Assembly (NCBI RefSeq): GCF_027924665.1
Contig: NZ_AP027043.1
Coordinates: 1,860,001 to 1,924,000 of the forward strand
Reading direction: 5' to 3'
DNA: 64,000 nt
From: Flavobacterium sp. GSB-24
GTDB taxonomy: Bacteria; Bacteroidota; Bacteroidia; Flavobacteriales; Flavobacteriaceae
In this document: one piece after another, positions 56,554-64,000 of the stretch
Numbering within the stretch: the first letter of the stretch is position 1
Layout: every line of letters begins with the position of its first letter
Notes under the pieces: model-generated
Database searches by the model: none
What the model was told of the DNA's origin: nothing
The model's input: the letters and a program-made list of their open reading frames with translations, nothing else
Position numbers and translations under genes: made by a program

Positions 56554-57429
56554 TTAAGTAGTATTAGCTTTGAGGGAATGTTTTTTTTCGTAATTTAAAG
56601 TTTTATAATATCTGTAGAGATGATCATAAATAATAAGCTCATACATTCTTTGATTAGAGGTATATTGGCGGTTAATCATCATATGTATATGACTTGCTAA
56701 AAAGTCATAAAGATCGATTTGAATTGCATTTTTTATTTCTAAGATTTTCTCTGCGGTTTGATTTTGTTTTTCTTCAATTAATTCGTAAAAATCAGGGATA
56801 TTAGATCTATTTTGTCCTTTTATATAATACTTTACTTCGTTAGATAATTCTCTGTATTTTTTATCAAGTTCTTTTTTTAATATTTTATCTGCCTCAAATT
56901 CTTCCTTAAACAAGTGCTGTAAAGTTTGCATTAGACTGAACTTCTCTGACGCAGATAAATAAAAAGAATTTAAAAGAGAGTCGATCGAGCAAAAACTAAA
57001 TAAAAGTGCCATTTCTTTTTTTTGAAATGTTTTCTTTAGCGAAATATATTTAATCATCATTTCACTATCCTTCCAAAATAAAAATTCGGAATCTTCAACA
57101 GTGGTTTCGCCGTATCTTTCTATTTCTCTTTTATAAGTATCCGTTTGAATTTTCCACGCTAAATTTTTCTGAAGCAGATCATTCAGAATTGGATAAAGCA
57201 TATTAATTAATTTTGATAGATCTTTTTTGTTTTCCAATAAAAATCGGATTCTAAAATGTGTGTCATTATCTTGGTATCGAATGAAGAACCATTTTTGAAT
57301 GATTTTTTTCTTTTTTAATTGTAAAATAGCAGGATATAATTTTTCAAGTAAAATAAGATCTGTTGTTTTCGCTCCTGTGTAAATTTTATAGTAAAGCCAT
57401 TCACTCCCTAAACAAAAATTTCTCTGCAT
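56554..57429 (-). CDS. Lanthipeptide dehydratase, C-terminal (SpaB_C / elimination) part
   Basis: 291 aa of the thiopeptide-type/SpaB_C family: WLYYKIYTGAKTTDLILLEK, then KWFFIRYQDNDTHFRIRF (the family's YxDxxxHxRxRF motif), and ERYGETTVEDSEFLFWKDS later. In class I lanthipeptide synthesis this domain removes glutamate from glutamylated Ser/Thr to give dehydroalanine/dehydrobutyrine. It abuts the LanB N-terminal gene (stop then ATG, no gap). Split LanB is known in Bacteroidota (pinensin locus). Last gene of the unit. Confidence 0.92.
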   Translation of the reverse strand: MQRNFCLGSEWLYYKIYTGAKTTDLILLEKLYPAILQLKKKKIIQKWFFIRYQDNDTHFRIRFLLENKKDLSKLINMLYPILNDLLQKNLAWKIQTDTYKREIERYGETTVEDSEFLFWKDSEMMIKYISLKKTFQKKEMALLFSFCSIDSLLNSFYLSASEKFSLMQTLQHLFKEEFEADKILKKELDKKYRELSNEVKYYIKGQNRSNIPDFYELIEEKQNQTAEKILEIKNAIQIDLYDFLASHIHMMINRQYTSNQRMYELIIYDHLYRYYKTLNYEKKHSLKANTT

Positions 57430-59631
57430 TTATAATTGTTCTTTAAAAAATGATAATATAAATTGGTTGCTAAATCCTTCTTCCTTATTATTTTTTACAA
57501 TAGGTTCTTCCGTAAATAGAAATTCTTCCAGAATAATTTTGTCTCTCTTTCCAGCTGACTTTAAAAACAATTGAATTCCAATTTCTGTTTGAAAATTTAA
57601 AAGAAGTGTATTGTCTGAATTGATCCAGTTTACGAGATATGGAATACCTCTGTTGCTTCTCCAAAGCGAGAATGCTTCCAATAGATCTTTACCAATTAAT
57701 TTAAAAAATGGAGCCATTTCTTCTTTAGCAATATGCCATTTCGCTTTCGAAAGTATAATTTCTTTGTATTCTACTCTCGGAAAATAATTATAATGAGACT
57801 CTAAAATTCCCCAGCTAAAGCTAAATATTGGTCTTGTATTCTGCCCCTGCAAATCGCATAAAAAATGATAAACGGGGAGTGAATTATTACTAAAGTTATG
57901 AGCGTTTGAAAGACAAGGAATAACTTCTTTATTGAGTTTTTTAGAATAGAGTTTAATTTCATCGTTTCTCACAGAGACAAATAAATCATTTAACTCAATA
58001 GTGTTTTCTTTTTCAGTACCTGAATTCGCCAGATAGGCAATTTCATAATTTCTTAAAACAGGTCTTCGTAAAATGTTTCCAGTTCTGGATTGAGGGATAT
58101 GAACAATTTCAGCTAGAATTTTATCATTATGGTATTCTTGTTCTTTTTTTATAATTTTTTTAGTAAGTTTTTGAATATCAGTGTTTCCGTTGCAAAATCT
58201 GCCCAAGAGTTTTGCTGCGCTAATATCTCCTGAAGATTCAATTGCCAGCTTTTGATTACTGTATATCTCAATCATTGCAGAGAATGTAGCAGGAATCTGA
58301 TCCAGATTAGTATCAAAATAAGGAAAATCACTTTCATGTAATTCTATTTTGTTCTTTTTTTTTGAAAGACACTCTTGAAGTTTTTTTTCTAGAATAGAAT
58401 CATATGAAGTCCAGCTCTGAGTCTCATTTTTGCTCTTTTTACGTTTAAAAGTAAAAGCTTCAAGGATCTCGTGCGAATCATTCATTTCATGATTTACAGG
58501 ATAGCCTAATCCGCAATCTGTATCTAAAACAGCCATAAGAGGCATTTGCTGTGTTTCATATCTTTCAGAAAATGCTTTGATAAACATCTTGAGATTATGA
58601 GGTTTTTTTGCAGGATGTATACCGTTAAAAAAATAAAGGCCCTTGATAACCTTTTCTGAAATAGCAGTATTTAAACTATTTGTTATAGAAGTTATGTTTA
58701 AATCAGTTTGTAAAAGATATTTTTCATCATATTCAAACTTTTTTTTGAAAATATTTTCTTTGATTTCTTTGTACTGATTTTCTGCCGGAATCAGAGAAAG
58801 ATCCAAATCTAAAACTTGTTTATTCAGTCCCTTTAAAAATTGATATTCCTCTTCCAGATCTGGGATATTTTTTAAAATGGACACAACGCGATCAAAATCG
58901 TTACAGCCAGTTACAGCGGCTTCTATTTCGCTTACTAAAAACTGGAAATCTATAAGATGTATAATGAAATCTAGAGCCTCTTCTTTTTGAGAATCATCAT
59001 CTGCTAAAATAGAAACCATTTCGTCTACAGTTAATCCTGATTTTATTTGATTTATTATCTCATTTAAAGCTTCAGTTTTTCGTAAGGATGTAATAGTATG
59101 TTCGCGCTTTGTCTTTATGTATTTGTATTCTATATATCTATAAAAATCACCAAATTCATAAATAGAAGAATTTGGAAAATATTTTAAATTATAAATTGCT
59201 TTTTCTCGTTTGGTGATATTTTGCAGCAATGCTACCCAGAACTGCATGTCTAATTGAGTGAATCTTTTGTGTTTTTCAGGTAAATCTAATATTATATTGG
59301 TATCAGCATTCATTTCCCCTACAGAACATCCAGCAAAAAGGCCAAAAGGCGTACATCTTGAAGACATTCTTGCAATATATTTGAGTAATGTAAATTCTAA
59401 AGCTGATTTTTCATTAGAAGAATCAGCTTTAGAATTTTCCCATTTGTTAAGCTCATTTACCAGTTCTGGAGATGCTAGATTTAACGCTTCTTTTACTAGT
59501 GTATTTTTGTAAATAGAAATTGCCTTTTCACAATTATAATTTTTGAGAAGATGCAAATAAAAAGGAATGGGGAATAAAGGGGTTCTCAGTATATATTGTG
59601 AAAAAGAAGAAATTTTAAACTTTGGTTTCAT
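57430..59631 (-). CDS. Lanthipeptide dehydratase LanB, N-terminal (glutamylation) part
   Basis: 733 aa, the Lant_dehydr_N family. Near the start MSSRCTPFGLFAG (residues 89-101) is the conserved RxTPFGLFAG block; later LLGRFCNGN and HIPQSRTGNILRRPVLRNYE (the RxxNIxxRP-like block) are typical. It uses glutamyl-tRNA to activate Ser/Thr of the precursor. The elimination domain is the separate next gene, together ~1020 aa, equal to a full-length LanB. The ATG overlaps the upstream protease stop by 4 bases (ATGA), so translation is coupled. Confidence 0.93.
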   Translation of the reverse strand: MKPKFKISSFSQYILRTPLFPIPFYLHLLKNYNCEKAISIYKNTLVKEALNLASPELVNELNKWENSKADSSNEKSALEFTLLKYIARMSSRCTPFGLFAGCSVGEMNADTNIILDLPEKHKRFTQLDMQFWVALLQNITKREKAIYNLKYFPNSSIYEFGDFYRYIEYKYIKTKREHTITSLRKTEALNEIINQIKSGLTVDEMVSILADDDSQKEEALDFIIHLIDFQFLVSEIEAAVTGCNDFDRVVSILKNIPDLEEEYQFLKGLNKQVLDLDLSLIPAENQYKEIKENIFKKKFEYDEKYLLQTDLNITSITNSLNTAISEKVIKGLYFFNGIHPAKKPHNLKMFIKAFSERYETQQMPLMAVLDTDCGLGYPVNHEMNDSHEILEAFTFKRKKSKNETQSWTSYDSILEKKLQECLSKKKNKIELHESDFPYFDTNLDQIPATFSAMIEIYSNQKLAIESSGDISAAKLLGRFCNGNTDIQKLTKKIIKKEQEYHNDKILAEIVHIPQSRTGNILRRPVLRNYEIAYLANSGTEKENTIELNDLFVSVRNDEIKLYSKKLNKEVIPCLSNAHNFSNNSLPVYHFLCDLQGQNTRPIFSFSWGILESHYNYFPRVEYKEIILSKAKWHIAKEEMAPFFKLIGKDLLEAFSLWRSNRGIPYLVNWINSDNTLLLNFQTEIGIQLFLKSAGKRDKIILEEFLFTEEPIVKNNKEEGFSNQFILSFFKEQL

Positions 59632-61328
59632 TTCTTCTTTTTGCTAACTTTTTCGGCTAATAGCATAGCATTATAAACATTTAGAACTTTTCCTGATTTT
59701 GATAATTCTGAAAACGGGACTTTTTTGTCTTTTGTTCCTGGTAAAATAACCTCTATGTCATATGGAGTTCCAGAATCTATAATGATTTGTTTGACTTCTT
59801 TTGCGGTAAGTTTAGGATTATATAGCCATATTAATGCTGCCGTTCCTGACACCATTGGTCCAGCAAATGATGTACCGGAATCAAATATGTAACGATTATT
59901 GGTAATTGTAGAATATATTTCATCTCCGGGAGCAAATAGGTCTACATTATGTTTTCCGTAATTAGAAAAGTCAGAAACAAAAGTAATATCAAGTTTATGT
60001 GTAATAGATCCTACATTAAGAAAATTAGGATTCATTTCATTGAAATTTTCAAAATCAGTATCATTTGGGTAGAAAGGGTTTTTGTCGATGTCAAATCCAT
60101 CGTTTCCTGCACAATGAATAAGAAGAACATTATGTTCTTCGGCATATTTAAATGCCTCTTCGACCCATTCTTTATGTAAAGAAAACTCTTTACCAAAAGA
60201 CATATTAATTATTTTAGCACCATTATCGACAGCATAATGTATTGCCATAGCAACATCCTTGTCTTGTTCATCCCCTACAGGAATAATACTTAAGGGCATA
60301 ATCTTTACATTTTGTGCAATTCCTTTAATTCCAATATTATTTTCTCTGTTGGCAGCAATTACTCCTGAGACTTTGGTAGAATGTTCCTGTACAGATTGAT
60401 ATTCTGTTTTATTATTTACATTATTATTACCATAACCTTTTTCCAAAACATTAGGATTATCGGCTATTAATAAACGATCGTTGTAATTTTTATTTATGTT
60501 TCTCTTTACAACAGAATCGAGATAAGCTTGCTGATCTTTCACATCTTTGAAAGTTTTTTGATCAACTTCCAGATTAACCATAATATAGCAAATTAATGCT
60601 CCTAGATCCTTATCATTATCATCGCGTCTCTGTCTATATGTTTTATCGTTTATCTTGTATTTTTTATATAAACTATCTAATTGATTGTATGTATAATCTT
60701 CTTTAGGGAAAAAATATTTTAAAGTATCTTTTACCAAAGGATAAATAGCAACGTCATGATCCAGAGATTTTAACCAGTTTTTATAATATTTATTTTCTTC
60801 TTCTAACTTTTTTAAAGCTCTATTATATTCTTTATATTTAGATAAATCTTTAGCCTCAATTTGAGCCTCTGTTTTATCTTTAAATGATGGTTCCCAATCT
60901 CTTACCAGACGTGTATACTCATAATTACCCCATACAAGATAACCTTCTTTTTTGGTTCCTTTAAAATTCCATCCGTTTATATCATCTATATAACCATTGT
61001 GGTCATCATCAACGCCATTGTTTGGGATTTCCTTATCGTTGATCCAAAGTTGTCCTTGTAAATCTTCATGATTTATATCAATTTGAGTGTCAAGTACAGC
61101 TACAATAATGTTTTTACTTTTTGGTTTCTTTTTATTAGATGCATACCATTTATCTAATGAAATACCAAGTATACCATCTAAAACCAGATCTTTCTGATAC
61201 CAAGTTTGCATTTCTTTATTAGAGAGTTCTTTTTTAACAGAATTCCTTGTCGTTGAATTTAAATCTTTTTTGCTTTTGCATCCGACAAATAACAAAAGAA
61301 GCAAAATAAAAAATAGTATATGTTTCAT
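59628..61328 (-). CDS. Lipoprotein subtilase (S8 peptidase), copy nearer LanB
   Basis: 566 aa. Lipoprotein signal MKHILFFILLLLLFVGC (C17). Catalytic triad of subtilisins: D80 in VAVLDTQID, H316 in EHSTKVSGVIAAN, S487 in DSGTSFAGPMVSG; oxyanion Asn in CAGND (N409). Between D and H lies an unusual ~200-residue, charged insert (NRALKKLEEENKYYKNWLKS). It is a close paralogue of the next gene upstream. It is coupled to lanB by a 4-base overlap, so a role in leader removal, immunity or other processing is likely but not shown. Confidence 0.93.
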   Translation of the reverse strand: MKHILFFILLLLLFVGCKSKKDLNSTTRNSVKKELSNKEMQTWYQKDLVLDGILGISLDKWYASNKKKPKSKNIIVAVLDTQIDINHEDLQGQLWINDKEIPNNGVDDDHNGYIDDINGWNFKGTKKEGYLVWGNYEYTRLVRDWEPSFKDKTEAQIEAKDLSKYKEYNRALKKLEEENKYYKNWLKSLDHDVAIYPLVKDTLKYFFPKEDYTYNQLDSLYKKYKINDKTYRQRRDDNDKDLGALICYIMVNLEVDQKTFKDVKDQQAYLDSVVKRNINKNYNDRLLIADNPNVLEKGYGNNNVNNKTEYQSVQEHSTKVSGVIAANRENNIGIKGIAQNVKIMPLSIIPVGDEQDKDVAMAIHYAVDNGAKIINMSFGKEFSLHKEWVEEAFKYAEEHNVLLIHCAGNDGFDIDKNPFYPNDTDFENFNEMNPNFLNVGSITHKLDITFVSDFSNYGKHNVDLFAPGDEIYSTITNNRYIFDSGTSFAGPMVSGTAALIWLYNPKLTAKEVKQIIIDSGTPYDIEVILPGTKDKKVPFSELSKSGKVLNVYNAMLLAEKVSKKKK

Positions 61329-61374
61329 TGCTGGCTTTGATTTTTTAAATGTGATGTATATCTATCTTTTATTT

Positions 61375-63066
61375 TTATCGGATTTTTTTGGCAAGTTGCA
61401 TCGCATTATAGACATTTAGAACTTTTCCTGATTTAGATAATTCAGAAAAGGGAACTTTTTTATCTTTTGTTCCTGGTAATATAACTTCGAAATTATATGC
61501 AGTTCCAGAATCCATAATAATCTGTTTAACCTGAGCTGCTGTAAGATTCGGATAATAAGACCAAATTATTGCCGCAGTTCCAGATACCATAGGTGCTGAA
61601 AATGAAGTTCCAGAATCGGTTTTATAAATGTTCCCAGCTCCAGTAGTATAAATATCTTCTCCAGGAGCAAATAAATCCACATTTTCTTTGCCGTAATTAG
61701 AGTAATCAGAAACTAATTTTTCCCCTAGATTCTTAGTAGTCGAGCCAACACTAATAAAATTATTGCAGATTCCTCGAATGCCTTCATAATTTTGATCATT
61801 AGGATAGTGAAATACTTTGTCTAAATTTTCACTGTCGTTTCCTGCACTGTGTACTAAAAGAACATTATGCTCTTCTGCATATTTAAAAGCCTCTGATACC
61901 CAATCTTTATGCATGGAAAACTCTTTTCCAAATGACATATTAATTATTTTGGCTCCATTATCGACGGCATAACGAACTGCCATTGCAATATCTTTATCAT
62001 GCTCATCTCCTGAAGGAGATATATTTAAAGGCATAATTTTTATATCTGCTATGCCTTTTATTCCAATATCATTATTTCTGTTGGCTGCGAGAATTCCCGA
62101 AACCATTGTGTTATGATCTTGAATTGGCCTATGTCCGACCTTATTATTACTGACATTGTTATTGCCATATCCTTTTTCTAAAATATTTGGATTATCACCT
62201 ATTGAAAGACGCTCATTATAATTTATATTCAAGTTTTTGTTTACTATAGAATCAAGTTGAGTTTGTTGGTCCAATATGTCTTGTAAAGAATTTTGATCAA
62301 CATCTAAACTAACCATCATATAAGAAATTAGCGCTCCTAAATCTGTATCGCCGTCATCTCTTCTTTGTCGATATCTTTTATCATTTATTTTATATTTTTT
62401 ATAGAGACTATCCAATTGTCTGTAGGTATAATCTTCCTTAGGGAAAAAATGTTTTAACGTATCTTTGACTAAAGGATAAATAGCGACATTATGATCTAAT
62501 GATTTTAACCAATTTTTGTAAAACTTGTCTTTTTCTTCAAATTTTTTTAAAGCTCTTTGATATTCATTGTATTTGTATAAATCTTTAGAATCAATTTGAG
62601 ATTCTGTTTTATCTTTAAATAGAGGTGTCCATTCTTGTAGAATGCGAACATATTCATATCTATTCCAGACTACATAACCACCACTTTTAGTACCTGTAAA
62701 ACTCCATCCATTAATATCATCTATGTAACCATTCTGATCATCATCAATTCCATTATTTGGAATTTCCTTGTTGTTTATCCAAAGCTGTCCTTTTAAATCT
62801 TCATGATTTATATCAATTTGAGTATCTATTACAGCTACAATAATATTTTTAATTTTTGGTTTCTTTTTATTTAGGCGATACCATTTATCTAGTGAAATAC
62901 CGGAAATAGTATCTTCTTGGTAATCTTTTTGATACCAATTATTTAATGATATTGTTTTTGGGTTGTTTTCAGAATTTAGAATTCTGTTAGAATTCTTATA
63001 TTCTTTGGCAGATTTGCAACTTACAAAAATGAAGAAAAAAATCAAGAAACTATTAATTAATTTCAT
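61375..63066 (-). CDS. Lipoprotein subtilase (S8 peptidase), copy nearer precursor
   Basis: 563 aa, most of it closely similar to the downstream copy. Lipoprotein signal MKLINSFLIFFFIFVSC (C17). Triad D81 (VAVIDTQID), H318 (DHNTMVSGILAAN), S487 (DSGTSFSAPMVSG), with the same ~200-residue insert. Both copies end in GTKDKKVPFSELSKSGKVLN. No type IX sorting domain. The signal suggests the protein is anchored in a membrane facing the periplasm or outside. It begins 42 bp after the precursor stop. All catalytic residues are present in both copies. Confidence 0.93.
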   Translation of the reverse strand: MKLINSFLIFFFIFVSCKSAKEYKNSNRILNSENNPKTISLNNWYQKDYQEDTISGISLDKWYRLNKKKPKIKNIIVAVIDTQIDINHEDLKGQLWINNKEIPNNGIDDDQNGYIDDINGWSFTGTKSGGYVVWNRYEYVRILQEWTPLFKDKTESQIDSKDLYKYNEYQRALKKFEEKDKFYKNWLKSLDHNVAIYPLVKDTLKHFFPKEDYTYRQLDSLYKKYKINDKRYRQRRDDGDTDLGALISYMMVSLDVDQNSLQDILDQQTQLDSIVNKNLNINYNERLSIGDNPNILEKGYGNNNVSNNKVGHRPIQDHNTMVSGILAANRNNDIGIKGIADIKIMPLNISPSGDEHDKDIAMAVRYAVDNGAKIINMSFGKEFSMHKDWVSEAFKYAEEHNVLLVHSAGNDSENLDKVFHYPNDQNYEGIRGICNNFISVGSTTKNLGEKLVSDYSNYGKENVDLFAPGEDIYTTGAGNIYKTDSGTSFSAPMVSGTAAIIWSYYPNLTAAQVKQIIMDSGTAYNFEVILPGTKDKKVPFSELSKSGKVLNVYNAMQLAKKIR

Positions 63067-63108
63067 GTCTGAATAAATGCTTTTTTTAGTGAAATTAGAT
63101 AATTAGTT

Positions 63109-63285
63109 TTATGGTTTATTACAAACTTCAGAAGAACCTTTTTTTCCTTTAAGATCATTTGTATCGATTGGATCATCGATATCATTTCCCCCACCAACAA
63201 TTAAATGTAAGTTTTTTAGTTTTGCGACTTCGAATTTCTCAAGACTGAATTTCTGTATTTCTTTTTTTTGTTTTTTCATTTTCAT
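63109..63285 (-). CDS. Lanthipeptide-type precursor peptide (58 aa)
   Basis: Short gene seen by reading the minus strand. Leader: Lys-rich start, then EIQKFSLEKFEVAKLKNLHL (the KF-L-K---AKL-style block of Bacteroidota precursors), then IVGGG, a double-Gly-type leader end. The core (after GG) is about 25 residues: acidic, Asp/Asn-rich, with one Thr (T42), two Ser (S51, S52) and a single Cys (C55) in SSEVC, enough for one lanthionine ring. It is followed by two proteases and split LanB in the same direction. Starts at 63285 or 63279. Assignment rests on context and leader, not on a search. Confidence 0.8.
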   Translation of the reverse strand: MKMKKQKKEIQKFSLEKFEVAKLKNLHLIVGGGNDIDDPIDTNDLKGKKGSSEVCNKP

Positions 63286-63317: not shown

Positions 63318-63325
63318 CAAATGTA
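63318..63325 (-). promoter_or_regulatory. Candidate -7 element of the lanthipeptide operon
   Basis: On the minus strand TACATTTG matches TAnnTTTG, ending 32 bases before the precursor ATG. A clear -33 TTTG was not found, which would suit a promoter needing an activator. Confidence 0.4.
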
Positions 63326-63368: not shown

Positions 63369-63388
63369 TCGAAATTCCTGAATTTCGA
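63369..63388. promoter_or_regulatory. 20-bp palindrome, candidate operator
   Basis: TCGAAATTCCTGAATTTCGA: two 9-base arms and a 2-base centre. It sits ~45 bp upstream of the -7 candidate and between the AraC-type gene and the precursor. It has no T tail, so it does not look like a terminator; a regulator binding site fits better. Confidence 0.45.
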
Positions 63389-63430: not shown

Positions 63431-64000
63431 CTATATTGCAGAATCCAGTTCTTTAATGAAGTAGGTTGGTTTTAAACCTGTTTTTTTGTAAAATGCAGTC
63501 GAAAAAGATTCTGAATTGTTAAAACCAAACTCTAATGCAAGTGCTTGAATAGTATATTTTCTAAGCTTGTTGTTTTCCTGTAATTGTTTAATGGCAAACT
63601 CAATTCGTAGATCATTTATGTATTGAGTAAATGATTTTTCTTTGTATACATTAACTATTTTTGACACGTATTTACTGTTGGTTTCAAATGTGGTGGATAA
63701 AATTTGGACTGTTATATTTGATTGCAGATATCCTTTATTATCTTCAAAAAAACTAAGTTTTTCCAAAATTAGATTTACTAACTCTTGTGCGATACCTATT
63801 TCTTCACTTTTAGTTGGATCAATTTTAGGATTAGTTTCAATCTCAGATTCGTTAATGTTATTTACGGGATTTTGATTTATTATTTTTTCAAATCTAGATC
63901 GATATTGTTTCTTTGTACGATACTCATAGAAAGCAAAACCGCCTAAACTGATGGTCGTTAAAAATAAAACACCTAATCCCCAATGTGTTTTTATTTCATC
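63431..64000 (-). CDS. Membrane-anchored AraC-type regulator, C-terminal part
   Basis: The frame is open to the window edge, so the gene is cut at its 5' end (a TTG at 63766 is internal). Visible: a membrane helix (WGLGVLFLTTISLGGFAFYE), a linker of ~60 residues, then an AraC HTH pair (QYINDLRIEFAIKQLQENNK, then YTIQALALEFGFNNSESFST and TGLKPTYFIKEL). Bacteroidota regulators of this sort usually carry periplasmic or TPR sensor repeats before the helix. It is co-directional with and just ahead of the precursor, so it is a likely controller of the locus. Confidence 0.85.
   Translation of the reverse strand, partial: DEIKTHWGLGVLFLTTISLGGFAFYEYRTKKQYRSRFEKIINQNPVNNINESEIETNPKIDPTKSEEIGIAQELVNLILEKLSFFEDNKGYLQSNITVQILSTTFETNSKYVSKIVNVYKEKSFTQYINDLRIEFAIKQLQENNKLRKYTIQALALEFGFNNSESFSTAFYKKTGLKPTYFIKELDSAI

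Follow-up and report, generated by a model that had tools for sequence, protein, structure and literature searches.

What is a lanthipeptide dehydratase for where no cyclase accompanies it? The question is raised by a compact locus at 56554..63285 of the window, i.e., the whole 64,000-nucleotide stretch analysed here (Flavobacterium sp. GSB-24, assembly GCF_027924665.1, contig NZ_AP027043.1, positions 1,860,001 to 1,924,000 of the forward strand), in which a precursor peptide, two S8 subtilase lipoproteins and a LanB dehydratase split into two proteins are encoded behind a sensor gene. The locus is real and conserved, and its interest lies elsewhere than in the class I lanthipeptide genes and tandem proteases described by an earlier note on this DNA: the LanC cyclase is missing, the protease position is a slot and not a twin, and a membrane sensor with tetratricopeptide repeats (TPR) and an AraC-type domain is accompanied by an 18-bp palindrome. 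We lean towards reading the locus as a LanC-less split-LanB locus for a ribosomally synthesized and post-translationally modified peptide (RiPP), which would make a dehydrated signal (containing dehydroalanine or dehydrobutyrine) that is read by the sensor and activates the locus itself together with bacteriocin-like genes.

All five co-directional open reading frames (ORFs) of the earlier note were found on the minus strand, with ends and packing as described (zero gap between LanB_C and LanB_N, 4-base overlap between S8b and LanB_N). The features, in window positions, are:

56554..57429, minus strand: LanB_C, LanB elimination half, 291 aa (PF14028 209.5 bits, TIGR03891 185.7 bits)
57430..59631, minus strand: LanB_N, LanB glutamylation half, 733 aa (PF04738 441.9 bits over 2-648 of 649)
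59628..61328, minus strand: S8 subtilase lipoprotein b (S8b), 566 aa (PF00082 163 bits)
61375..63066, minus strand: S8 subtilase lipoprotein a (S8a), 563 aa (PF00082 166.8 bits)
63109..63285, minus strand: precursor peptide, 58 aa, leader KFSLEKFEVAKLKN...GG and short core with SSxxC (homologues in 42 order-I loci, defined below)
63318..63325, minus strand: TACATTTG, match to TAnnTTTG, 44 nt after the palindrome (from the sequence)
63370..63387, no strand: palindrome CGAAATTC-NN-GAATTTCG, proposed operator (0 mismatches)
63431..64000, minus strand: C-terminal part of the sensor, with a transmembrane (TM) segment recognised by eye and an AraC-type HTH_18 domain (PF12833 42.6 bits in the full protein)

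The split LanB, the absent cyclase and the protease slot

The earlier note depended on 57430-59631 belonging to the LanB family, and this was borne out: PF04738 and PF14028 both match far above their cut-offs, and the glutamylation and elimination domains lie on separate proteins (57430-59631 and 56554-57429, respectively), as in pinensin-like split LanBs. Each family has a single match in the genome, both at this locus. In LanB_C (alignment of 35 homologues), R51, H58, R60, R62, R101, E102, H249, N253, and R254 are invariant, and the Arg, His, and Glu positions among them align with the NisB stretches RYTDPKPHIRLR, DQEVERYG, and IIHVHNNR, which we take to be the elimination site; the profile built from these homologues matches the MadB-type protein (9g04), NisB, and one further lantibiotic dehydratase chain (5ehk). 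In LanB_N (alignment of 34 homologues), R16, R88, R92, T94, D128, and R478 are invariant and correspond to positions presumably needed for glutamylation by NisB, R16 lying ahead of the NisB-aligned part; its profile matches MadB and NisB. Because the conserved positions align with NisB, both halves are probably active.

No match to LanC (PF05147) was found anywhere in the genome (5.35 Mb, 2 contigs, estimated completeness 100%). Among 398 Flavobacterium genomes, 77 have a LanB_N match and 51 a LanC match. A LanB_N match of at least 45% identity (best segment; in fragments for G294 and G149) defines 42 genomes as class A; 26 of these have no LanC match at all, and in the other 16 the nearest LanC lies at least 11 kb off or on another contig, some contigs being short. 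An ordinary class I lanthipeptide locus was rejected on the grounds that LanC is unmatched in the own genome and in those 26. Of the interpretation in the earlier note, the split LanB and a LanA-like leader ending in GG stand; the assignment to class I lanthipeptides is not borne out, as the cyclase is missing and some homologous cores are free of Cys.

The order sensor-precursor-S8-LanB_N-LanB_C was found in 9/9 loci retrieved by LanB similarity from public genomes of Flavobacterium and other Flavobacteriaceae, five of them in genomes without LanC. Departures were confined to L006 (without S8), L005 (from Flavobacterium sp. LC2016-12) and L010 (two S8 each), and L013, whose sequence begins within the sensor and in which LanB_N is spread over two frames. 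A sensor-regulator gene directly upstream of the precursor, as would be expected in autoinduction, defines 42 order-I loci in all and 18 LanC-less order-II loci. Within 9 kb, no LanC was found at 41/42 order-I loci; at the exception, L012, two LanC genes on the other strand (L012:653-3453) lie beside a different GG precursor and were assigned to a neighbouring cluster.

For a wider census, 106 loci (100 with split LanB), sampled by similarity to the window LanB_N and not from all LanBs, were annotated with profiles built here, after L013 and L103 (duplicates of L193 and L010) and L056 and L191 (no LanB_N row) had been dropped. The triplet of sensor, precursor, and protease occurs in 54 split-LanB loci without LanC within 9 kb and in one with it (L012), while split-LanB loci without the triplet divide into 17 without and 28 with LanC (Fisher test over all 100, 5e-12). 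The 17 comprise four with sensor and precursor but no called protease (L006, L078, L181, and L190, the last at a contig end), L110 (its S8 was missed by the filter, the S8 ORF start overlapping the precursor), five with sensor and protease and no precursor called in place (L077, L101, L105, L159, L176), and seven others or fragments (L086, L087, L165, L188, L189, L193, L194). The six fused-LanB loci are split evenly, three with LanC and three without. In a LanB_N tree of 102/106 rows (L188, L189, L193, and L194 were left out), the 65 rows labelled LanC-less, i.e., the triplet loci plus L006, L012, L077, L078, L101, L105, L110, L159, L176, L181, and L190, need one change (SH-aLRT, an approximate likelihood-ratio support, 92; quick method, root unknown); the L176 row comes from another family of the order. 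The recurring gene set is therefore the sensor, the precursor, a secreted protease and the LanB halves, nearly exclusive of LanC. LanB_N is unmatched in a second genome of this species, G230, so the locus seems to be accessory and to vary between strains.

The neighbourhood comparison likewise did not refute the earlier note: protease and LanB recur together. What did not hold is the tandem arrangement which the earlier note had offered as a locus feature: one secreted protease is nearly always present, but S8 copies number 0 in 4, 1 in 29, 2 in 8, and 3 in 1 of the 42 order-I loci, and the twin was rejected as a hallmark. A recent local duplication was likewise rejected for the window, where the two copies are not sisters and each is nearest to copies in loci of other species; only in L101 are two copies nearest each other. 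Among the four loci without a called S8, L065 and L100 carry an S9A prolyl oligopeptidase in the same place, L061 has S8 in two frames, and L006 has none. The protease position is a slot, filled by S8 or S9A. In S8 (S8a numbering), D81, H318, S488, and the lipobox C17 are invariant in 12 aligned sequences, and S8b has an insert of ~190 residues between the Asp and His regions; the best PDB match, Deseasin MCP-01, covers 70-121 and 314-521 only, and a structure model (mean predicted local distance difference test, pLDDT, 44.8) was too poor for use. Across the LanC-less loci, 50/53 S8 proteins show the lipobox pattern and the remaining three a similar Cys by eye, and the 12 S9A proteins have signal-like N-terminal stretches, also by eye. 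As a separate observation, eight order-II loci (L070, L079, L084, L085, L175, L177, L178, L187) combine an S9A protease in the slot with Cys-free cores, and in four of them the cores end in a P-[IV]-T-x-x-T-[VI]-R-G-like stretch.

The precursor, its likely sensor and the palindrome

The precursor gave no Pfam or NCBIfam match, nor did related precursors. Its homologues lie between the sensor and the protease or LanB_N in the 42 order-I loci and have a conserved leader of the type KF[DNSG]LEKFEVAKLKN...GG, i.e., the FxLD motif of class I leaders with a GG end, followed by a hypervariable core (mean 26 residues); GG leader ends have been noted in Bacteroidetes (PMC7268733). The window core has one Cys, in SSxxC. 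Among 44 order-I cores, 6 have no Cys, 33 have one, and 5 have two or more; in order II (15 parsed of 18), the numbers are 10, 4, and 1. A lanthionine is impossible in the Cys-free homologues.

The sensor (583 aa, L003:7431-9182) runs 1182 bases past the window and matches PF13424 TPR_12 (32.5 bits) and PF12833 HTH_18, both over cut-off; a signal-like N-terminus and one TM stretch were recognised by eye. A model of the L005 sensor from 8 sequences shows TPR-like helices, a long helix, and the helix-turn-helix (HTH) domain, confident mainly at residues 31-190 and in the HTH; its PDB fold matches are TPR proteins (LGN, KLC1), several titled as peptide or partner complexes, with RapI at rank 35. 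Since the TPR part follows the signal-like stretch and precedes the TM helix, it would read a peptide outside the cytoplasm.

The stretch ahead of the precursor, read in 42 loci, yielded the palindrome consensus CGRAATTC-NN-GAATTYCG, which was scored at up to 2 mismatches, with 2 or 3 spacer nucleotides, in the 350 nt upstream. It precedes 44/46 profile-called precursors, the two misses being weak other-strand matches in L060, and hence 44/44 order-I precursors. Of the HTH genes, 39/46 scored have it (two more were unscored because of short flanks); among the seven without it are two distant HTH proteins, the second sensor inside the L104 operon, and the sensor fragment of L109. It also stands before 9/11 bacteriocin-like genes beside the sensor and 6/9 apart from it, or 5/8 without L109, which counts there because its sensor is split; these separate genes have the site in L009, L059 (twice), L100, and L107, and lack it in L097 and L098 (twice). 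By comparison, it precedes 0/19 HlyD/C39 genes and 3/315 other genes, and in 820 kb beyond those regions a single site was found at no more than 2 mismatches (spacer 2). A common site before precursor, regulator, and targets, as autoinduction would imply, is thus present in order I and weak in order II.

In the own genome, 63370-63387 is the only perfect site in 5.35 Mb, alongside two one-mismatch sites (C1:1925281, between the sensor and bacteriocin-like genes, and C1:1373365, inside an ORF) and eight two-mismatch sites; the reversed palindrome, used as a control, gave 5 sites vs 11. Apart from the site at the sensor, nine have one or two mismatches; four of these were inspected, and three lie inside ORFs and one between unrelated genes. 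In 38 of 42 upstream regions, the palindrome core is followed by TAnnTTTG, in 34/38 at 43-45 nt; we take this to be the Bacteroidota -7 motif, and the fixed geometry would fit an activator. A scan for sigma-70 promoters and terminators returned no more than in shuffled sequences. In addition, a perfect palindrome at L098:14864 (oriented with LanB_N on the plus strand) lies 242 nt upstream of a gene (547 aa) that is not part of the known set.

Co-variation of the core with other parts of the locus was assessed by rank Mantel tests on 33/42 order-I loci. Left out were two loci with two precursors each (L059, L104), one with a split sensor (L109), one in which the leader end was unclear (L096), and five in which no full S8 was picked up (L006, L061, L065, L100, L110). 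Core distance correlates with the periplasmic part of the sensor at r 0.58, and at 0.50 (p 0.0005) given LanB_N, while the cytoplasmic part reaches 0.18 (p 0.07) given LanB_N; the periplasmic correlation given the cytoplasmic part is 0.50 (p 0.002), and subsampling the periplasmic part to cytoplasmic size keeps 0.40-0.57. Linkage alone would predict the reverse ranking, since of the two parts it is the cytoplasmic one whose coding sequence lies closer to the precursor. LanB_C given LanB_N gives 0.05; the periplasmic part given S8 gives 0.26 (p 0.004), and S8 given the periplasmic part 0.08 (p 0.18). In a dereplicated set (n=22), the values are 0.40 (p 0.001) for the periplasmic part, 0.34 (p 0.001) for S8, and 0.25 (p 0.01) for the periplasmic part given S8. 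A scan along the proteins peaks at sensor residues 73-255 (0.46-0.50) and at S8 residues 129-308, i.e., the insert (0.38-0.49), the S8 end giving 0.07-0.11. By these distances, the core sequence tracks the periplasmic part of the sensor more than the DNA-binding part. As a further observation, L104 (G004) combines in a single operon two pairs of sensor and precursor that differ in both sensor and core, and is a natural test of receptor specificity.

A proposed peptide circuit and its rivals

A shared switch before the peptide gene, the sensor, and some neighbouring bacteriocin-like genes suggests that the peptide is a signal and not a plain antibiotic, and we propose the following course. LanB_N would bind the precursor via its FxLE-type leader and glutamylate Ser/Thr of the core with glutamyl-tRNA, and LanB_C would eliminate the glutamate to leave dehydroamino acids. 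As no LanC follows, a ring in Cys-bearing cores, if any, would form spontaneously or by an unknown enzyme. The GG leader would then be cut, and the peptide exported, by a C39-peptidase ATP-binding cassette (ABC) transporter with HlyD, as encoded next door. An extracytoplasmic serine protease (the S8 lipoprotein, or S9A in relatives) would trim or otherwise process the peptide, with the S8 insert perhaps recognising the core. The product would be bound by the TPR domain on the periplasmic side of the presumed one-pass membrane sensor, whose cytoplasmic AraC-type domain would bind the palindrome and activate the operon of the precursor, the sensor gene itself, and class II-like GG bacteriocin genes nearby, the whole forming a peptide autoinduction circuit.

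The export and bacteriocin-like genes lie past the window, divergent from the sensor (L003:9469-13780, i.e., C1:1925469-1929780): two short GG-leader peptides, a CPBP/Rce1-like protease, HlyD, and a C39-peptidase ABC transporter, with a palindrome between this cluster and the sensor. The second GG peptide matches TIGR03949 (class IIb) and PF10439, both below cut-off, and the first had no match. C39 (PF03412) was found in 25/26 LanC-less class-A genomes and in 56 of a sample of 121 Flavobacterium genomes (15/15 class A, 41/106 others). It lies within 13 kb of 17/33 class-A LanB_N genes, some misses being on short contigs; in one of the 17 (G042), it sits with a neighbouring LanC cluster. The LanC-less class-A genome without C39 is G237, whose order-I-like operon L105 has the palindrome (spacer 3) directly before S8 and no called precursor; it is possibly a decayed or a listener version.

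Several results weigh against this reading. The SSxxC of the window core resembles a lanthionine pair, L101 and L105 have no called precursor, and L006 has no protease. In order II, the palindrome shows weakly, at 2-3 mismatches before 8/18 precursors and not at all before 10, and before 0/18 HTH genes. Most sites between the sensor and adjacent bacteriocin genes sit ~145 nt from the sensor ORF, also where no bacteriocin gene is present, and may serve the sensor gene alone; given this constant distance, only the separate sites argue for bacteriocin control. The sensor model has a mean pLDDT of only 64 and rests on 8 sequences, and the excess of C39 (25/26 vs 41/106; Fisher 6e-8) was obtained with genome size uncontrolled. 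The co-variation tests were run without species-tree control. Co-variation with the core is likewise seen, given LanB_N, for S8 (0.44, p 0.0005) and for the leader (0.31, p 0.004), as would be expected from linkage, which it may reflect; the N-third of LanB_N given the rest, a control, reaches 0.21 (p 0.02), the other thirds not being significant, and after dereplication the cytoplasmic part, too, attains weak significance (0.26, p 0.04). A cruder 2-mer core distance lowers the periplasmic correlation given LanB_N to 0.24 (p 0.006; cytoplasmic 0.05, S8 0.28) and no longer separates it from S8 (periplasmic given S8 0.02, p 0.41). With these points counted, signalling is the best-supported reading and, from the sequence comparisons, modestly probable.

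One step of it has an alternative that is compatible with the rest: the proteases may degrade the peptide, for signal turnover or self-protection, rather than mature it. The lipoprotein or secretion signals, the S8 number of 0-3, and the exchangeable types would suit such a tuning or resistance function; against this, the protease nearly always stands directly behind the precursor, and subtilisin-like LanPA and prolyl oligopeptidase LanPB are known lanthipeptide proteases (PMC7268733), and we consider degradation somewhat unlikely. Rather unlikely, too, is that the LanB product is itself the antimicrobial effector, as a dehydropeptide or with one spontaneous lanthionine, co-regulated with class II-like bacteriocins while the sensor reads another cue. 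Many known LanB products are antibiotics, Ser/Thr stands 1-3 residues from Cys in 38/44 order-I cores, and the palindrome also stands before bacteriocin-like genes. However, cores are Cys-free in 6/44 order-I and 10/15 parsed order-II cases, they are short and hypervariable with a variation that follows the periplasmic part of the sensor, and neither the ORF list nor profile searches revealed an immunity gene or transporter inside the operon.

An ordinary class I lanthipeptide with LanC acting in trans, or with an unrecognised cyclase, is improbable. Split LanB and GG leaders do occur in LanC-bearing Bacteroidota clusters, and 16/42 class-A genomes have a LanC match somewhere, but the own genome and the other 26 have none, the distant LanC genes sit in several cases beside another LanB (L071, L081, L083, L088, L180, L182), some cores are Cys-free, and the LanC-less LanB_N rows group together. 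Very improbable is a pearlin- or pyritide-like route, in which LanB would ligate an amino acid onto the C-terminal end of the peptide or a pyridine ring would be formed by a SpaB_C protein. Both families have LanB without LanC, and Cys-free precursors (PMC11002830), but pearlin LanBs have only the glutamylation-like domain, whereas a conserved PF14028 protein is adjacent here, and with one PF14028 match in the genome none is left for the [4+2] cyclase of a pyritide or thiopeptide, so both were rejected.

The signalling reading can be carried further, tentatively and with doubt slightly prevailing, to a Gram-negative signalling type in which a LanB-dehydrated, uncyclised pheromone, a periplasmic or surface protease, and a co-evolving one-component TPR-AraC membrane receptor that senses on the extracytoplasmic side would switch on class II-like bacteriocins; hypervariable cores, receptor domains to match them, and the exchange of protease cassettes would diversify the specificity. 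If true, Bacteroidota would gain a circuit for peptide signalling in which the pheromone is modified, the operator defined, and the receptor open to testing, it would be explained why some LanB enzymes exist without LanC, and the circuit would be a testable control switch for Flavobacterium bacteriocin-like genes.

Comparison with the closest known systems

In nisin-type autoinduction and among class II bacteriocin pheromones, a membrane sensor lets a ribosomal peptide switch on its own operon or bacteriocin genes. The present sensor differs in being a one-component TPR-TM-AraC protein and not a histidine kinase pair, the host belongs to the Bacteroidota, and the peptide is probably modified by LanB and not cyclised by LanC. 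RRNPP receptors (Rap/Rgg/PlcR) likewise use a TPR domain and a short peptide to control transcription. The likeness lies in a TPR part proposed to bind a short peptide and steer transcription, with RapI among the fold matches; here, by contrast, the TPR part would act on the extracytoplasmic side, and the DNA-binding domain is AraC-type and C-terminal.

No description of a LanC-less Flavobacterium LanB system was recognised in the available parts of the open-licence literature. A survey of >100,000 genomes (PMC7268733) used LanC (PF05147) as bait, so LanC-less loci of this kind would have been missed in genomes without a nearby LanC; the same survey set aside Cys-less LanM precursors, reported split LanB, and named LanPA and LanPB. 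PMC10352776 describes TPR genes and possible signalling roles in two Bacteroidales RiPP clusters and reports that no LanB was found in Bacteroidales, and PMC10301443, PMC9576775, and PMC9993889 concern other systems. Pearlins and pyritides, as described in PMC11002830, share with the window locus type a LanB without LanC and precursors without Cys; here, in contrast, the elimination half is present with conserved positions, and there is no second SpaB_C enzyme. The proteases resemble LanPA and LanPB (PMC7268733), and differ in that the two types occupy the same slot in turn within a single LanC-less locus type and have a lipobox or a signal-like stretch at the N-terminus. With the pinensins and LanC-bearing Bacteroidota class I systems, the window locus has split LanB, GG-type leaders, and C39 proteases in common (PMC7268733). 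In the LanC-bearing loci mapped here, LanC lies near LanB_N and the sensor-precursor-protease triplet is absent except in L012, whereas loci of the window type lack LanC, their cores mostly contain 0-1 Cys, they carry a TPR-AraC sensor together with a secreted protease at a fixed position, and their LanB_N groups apart.

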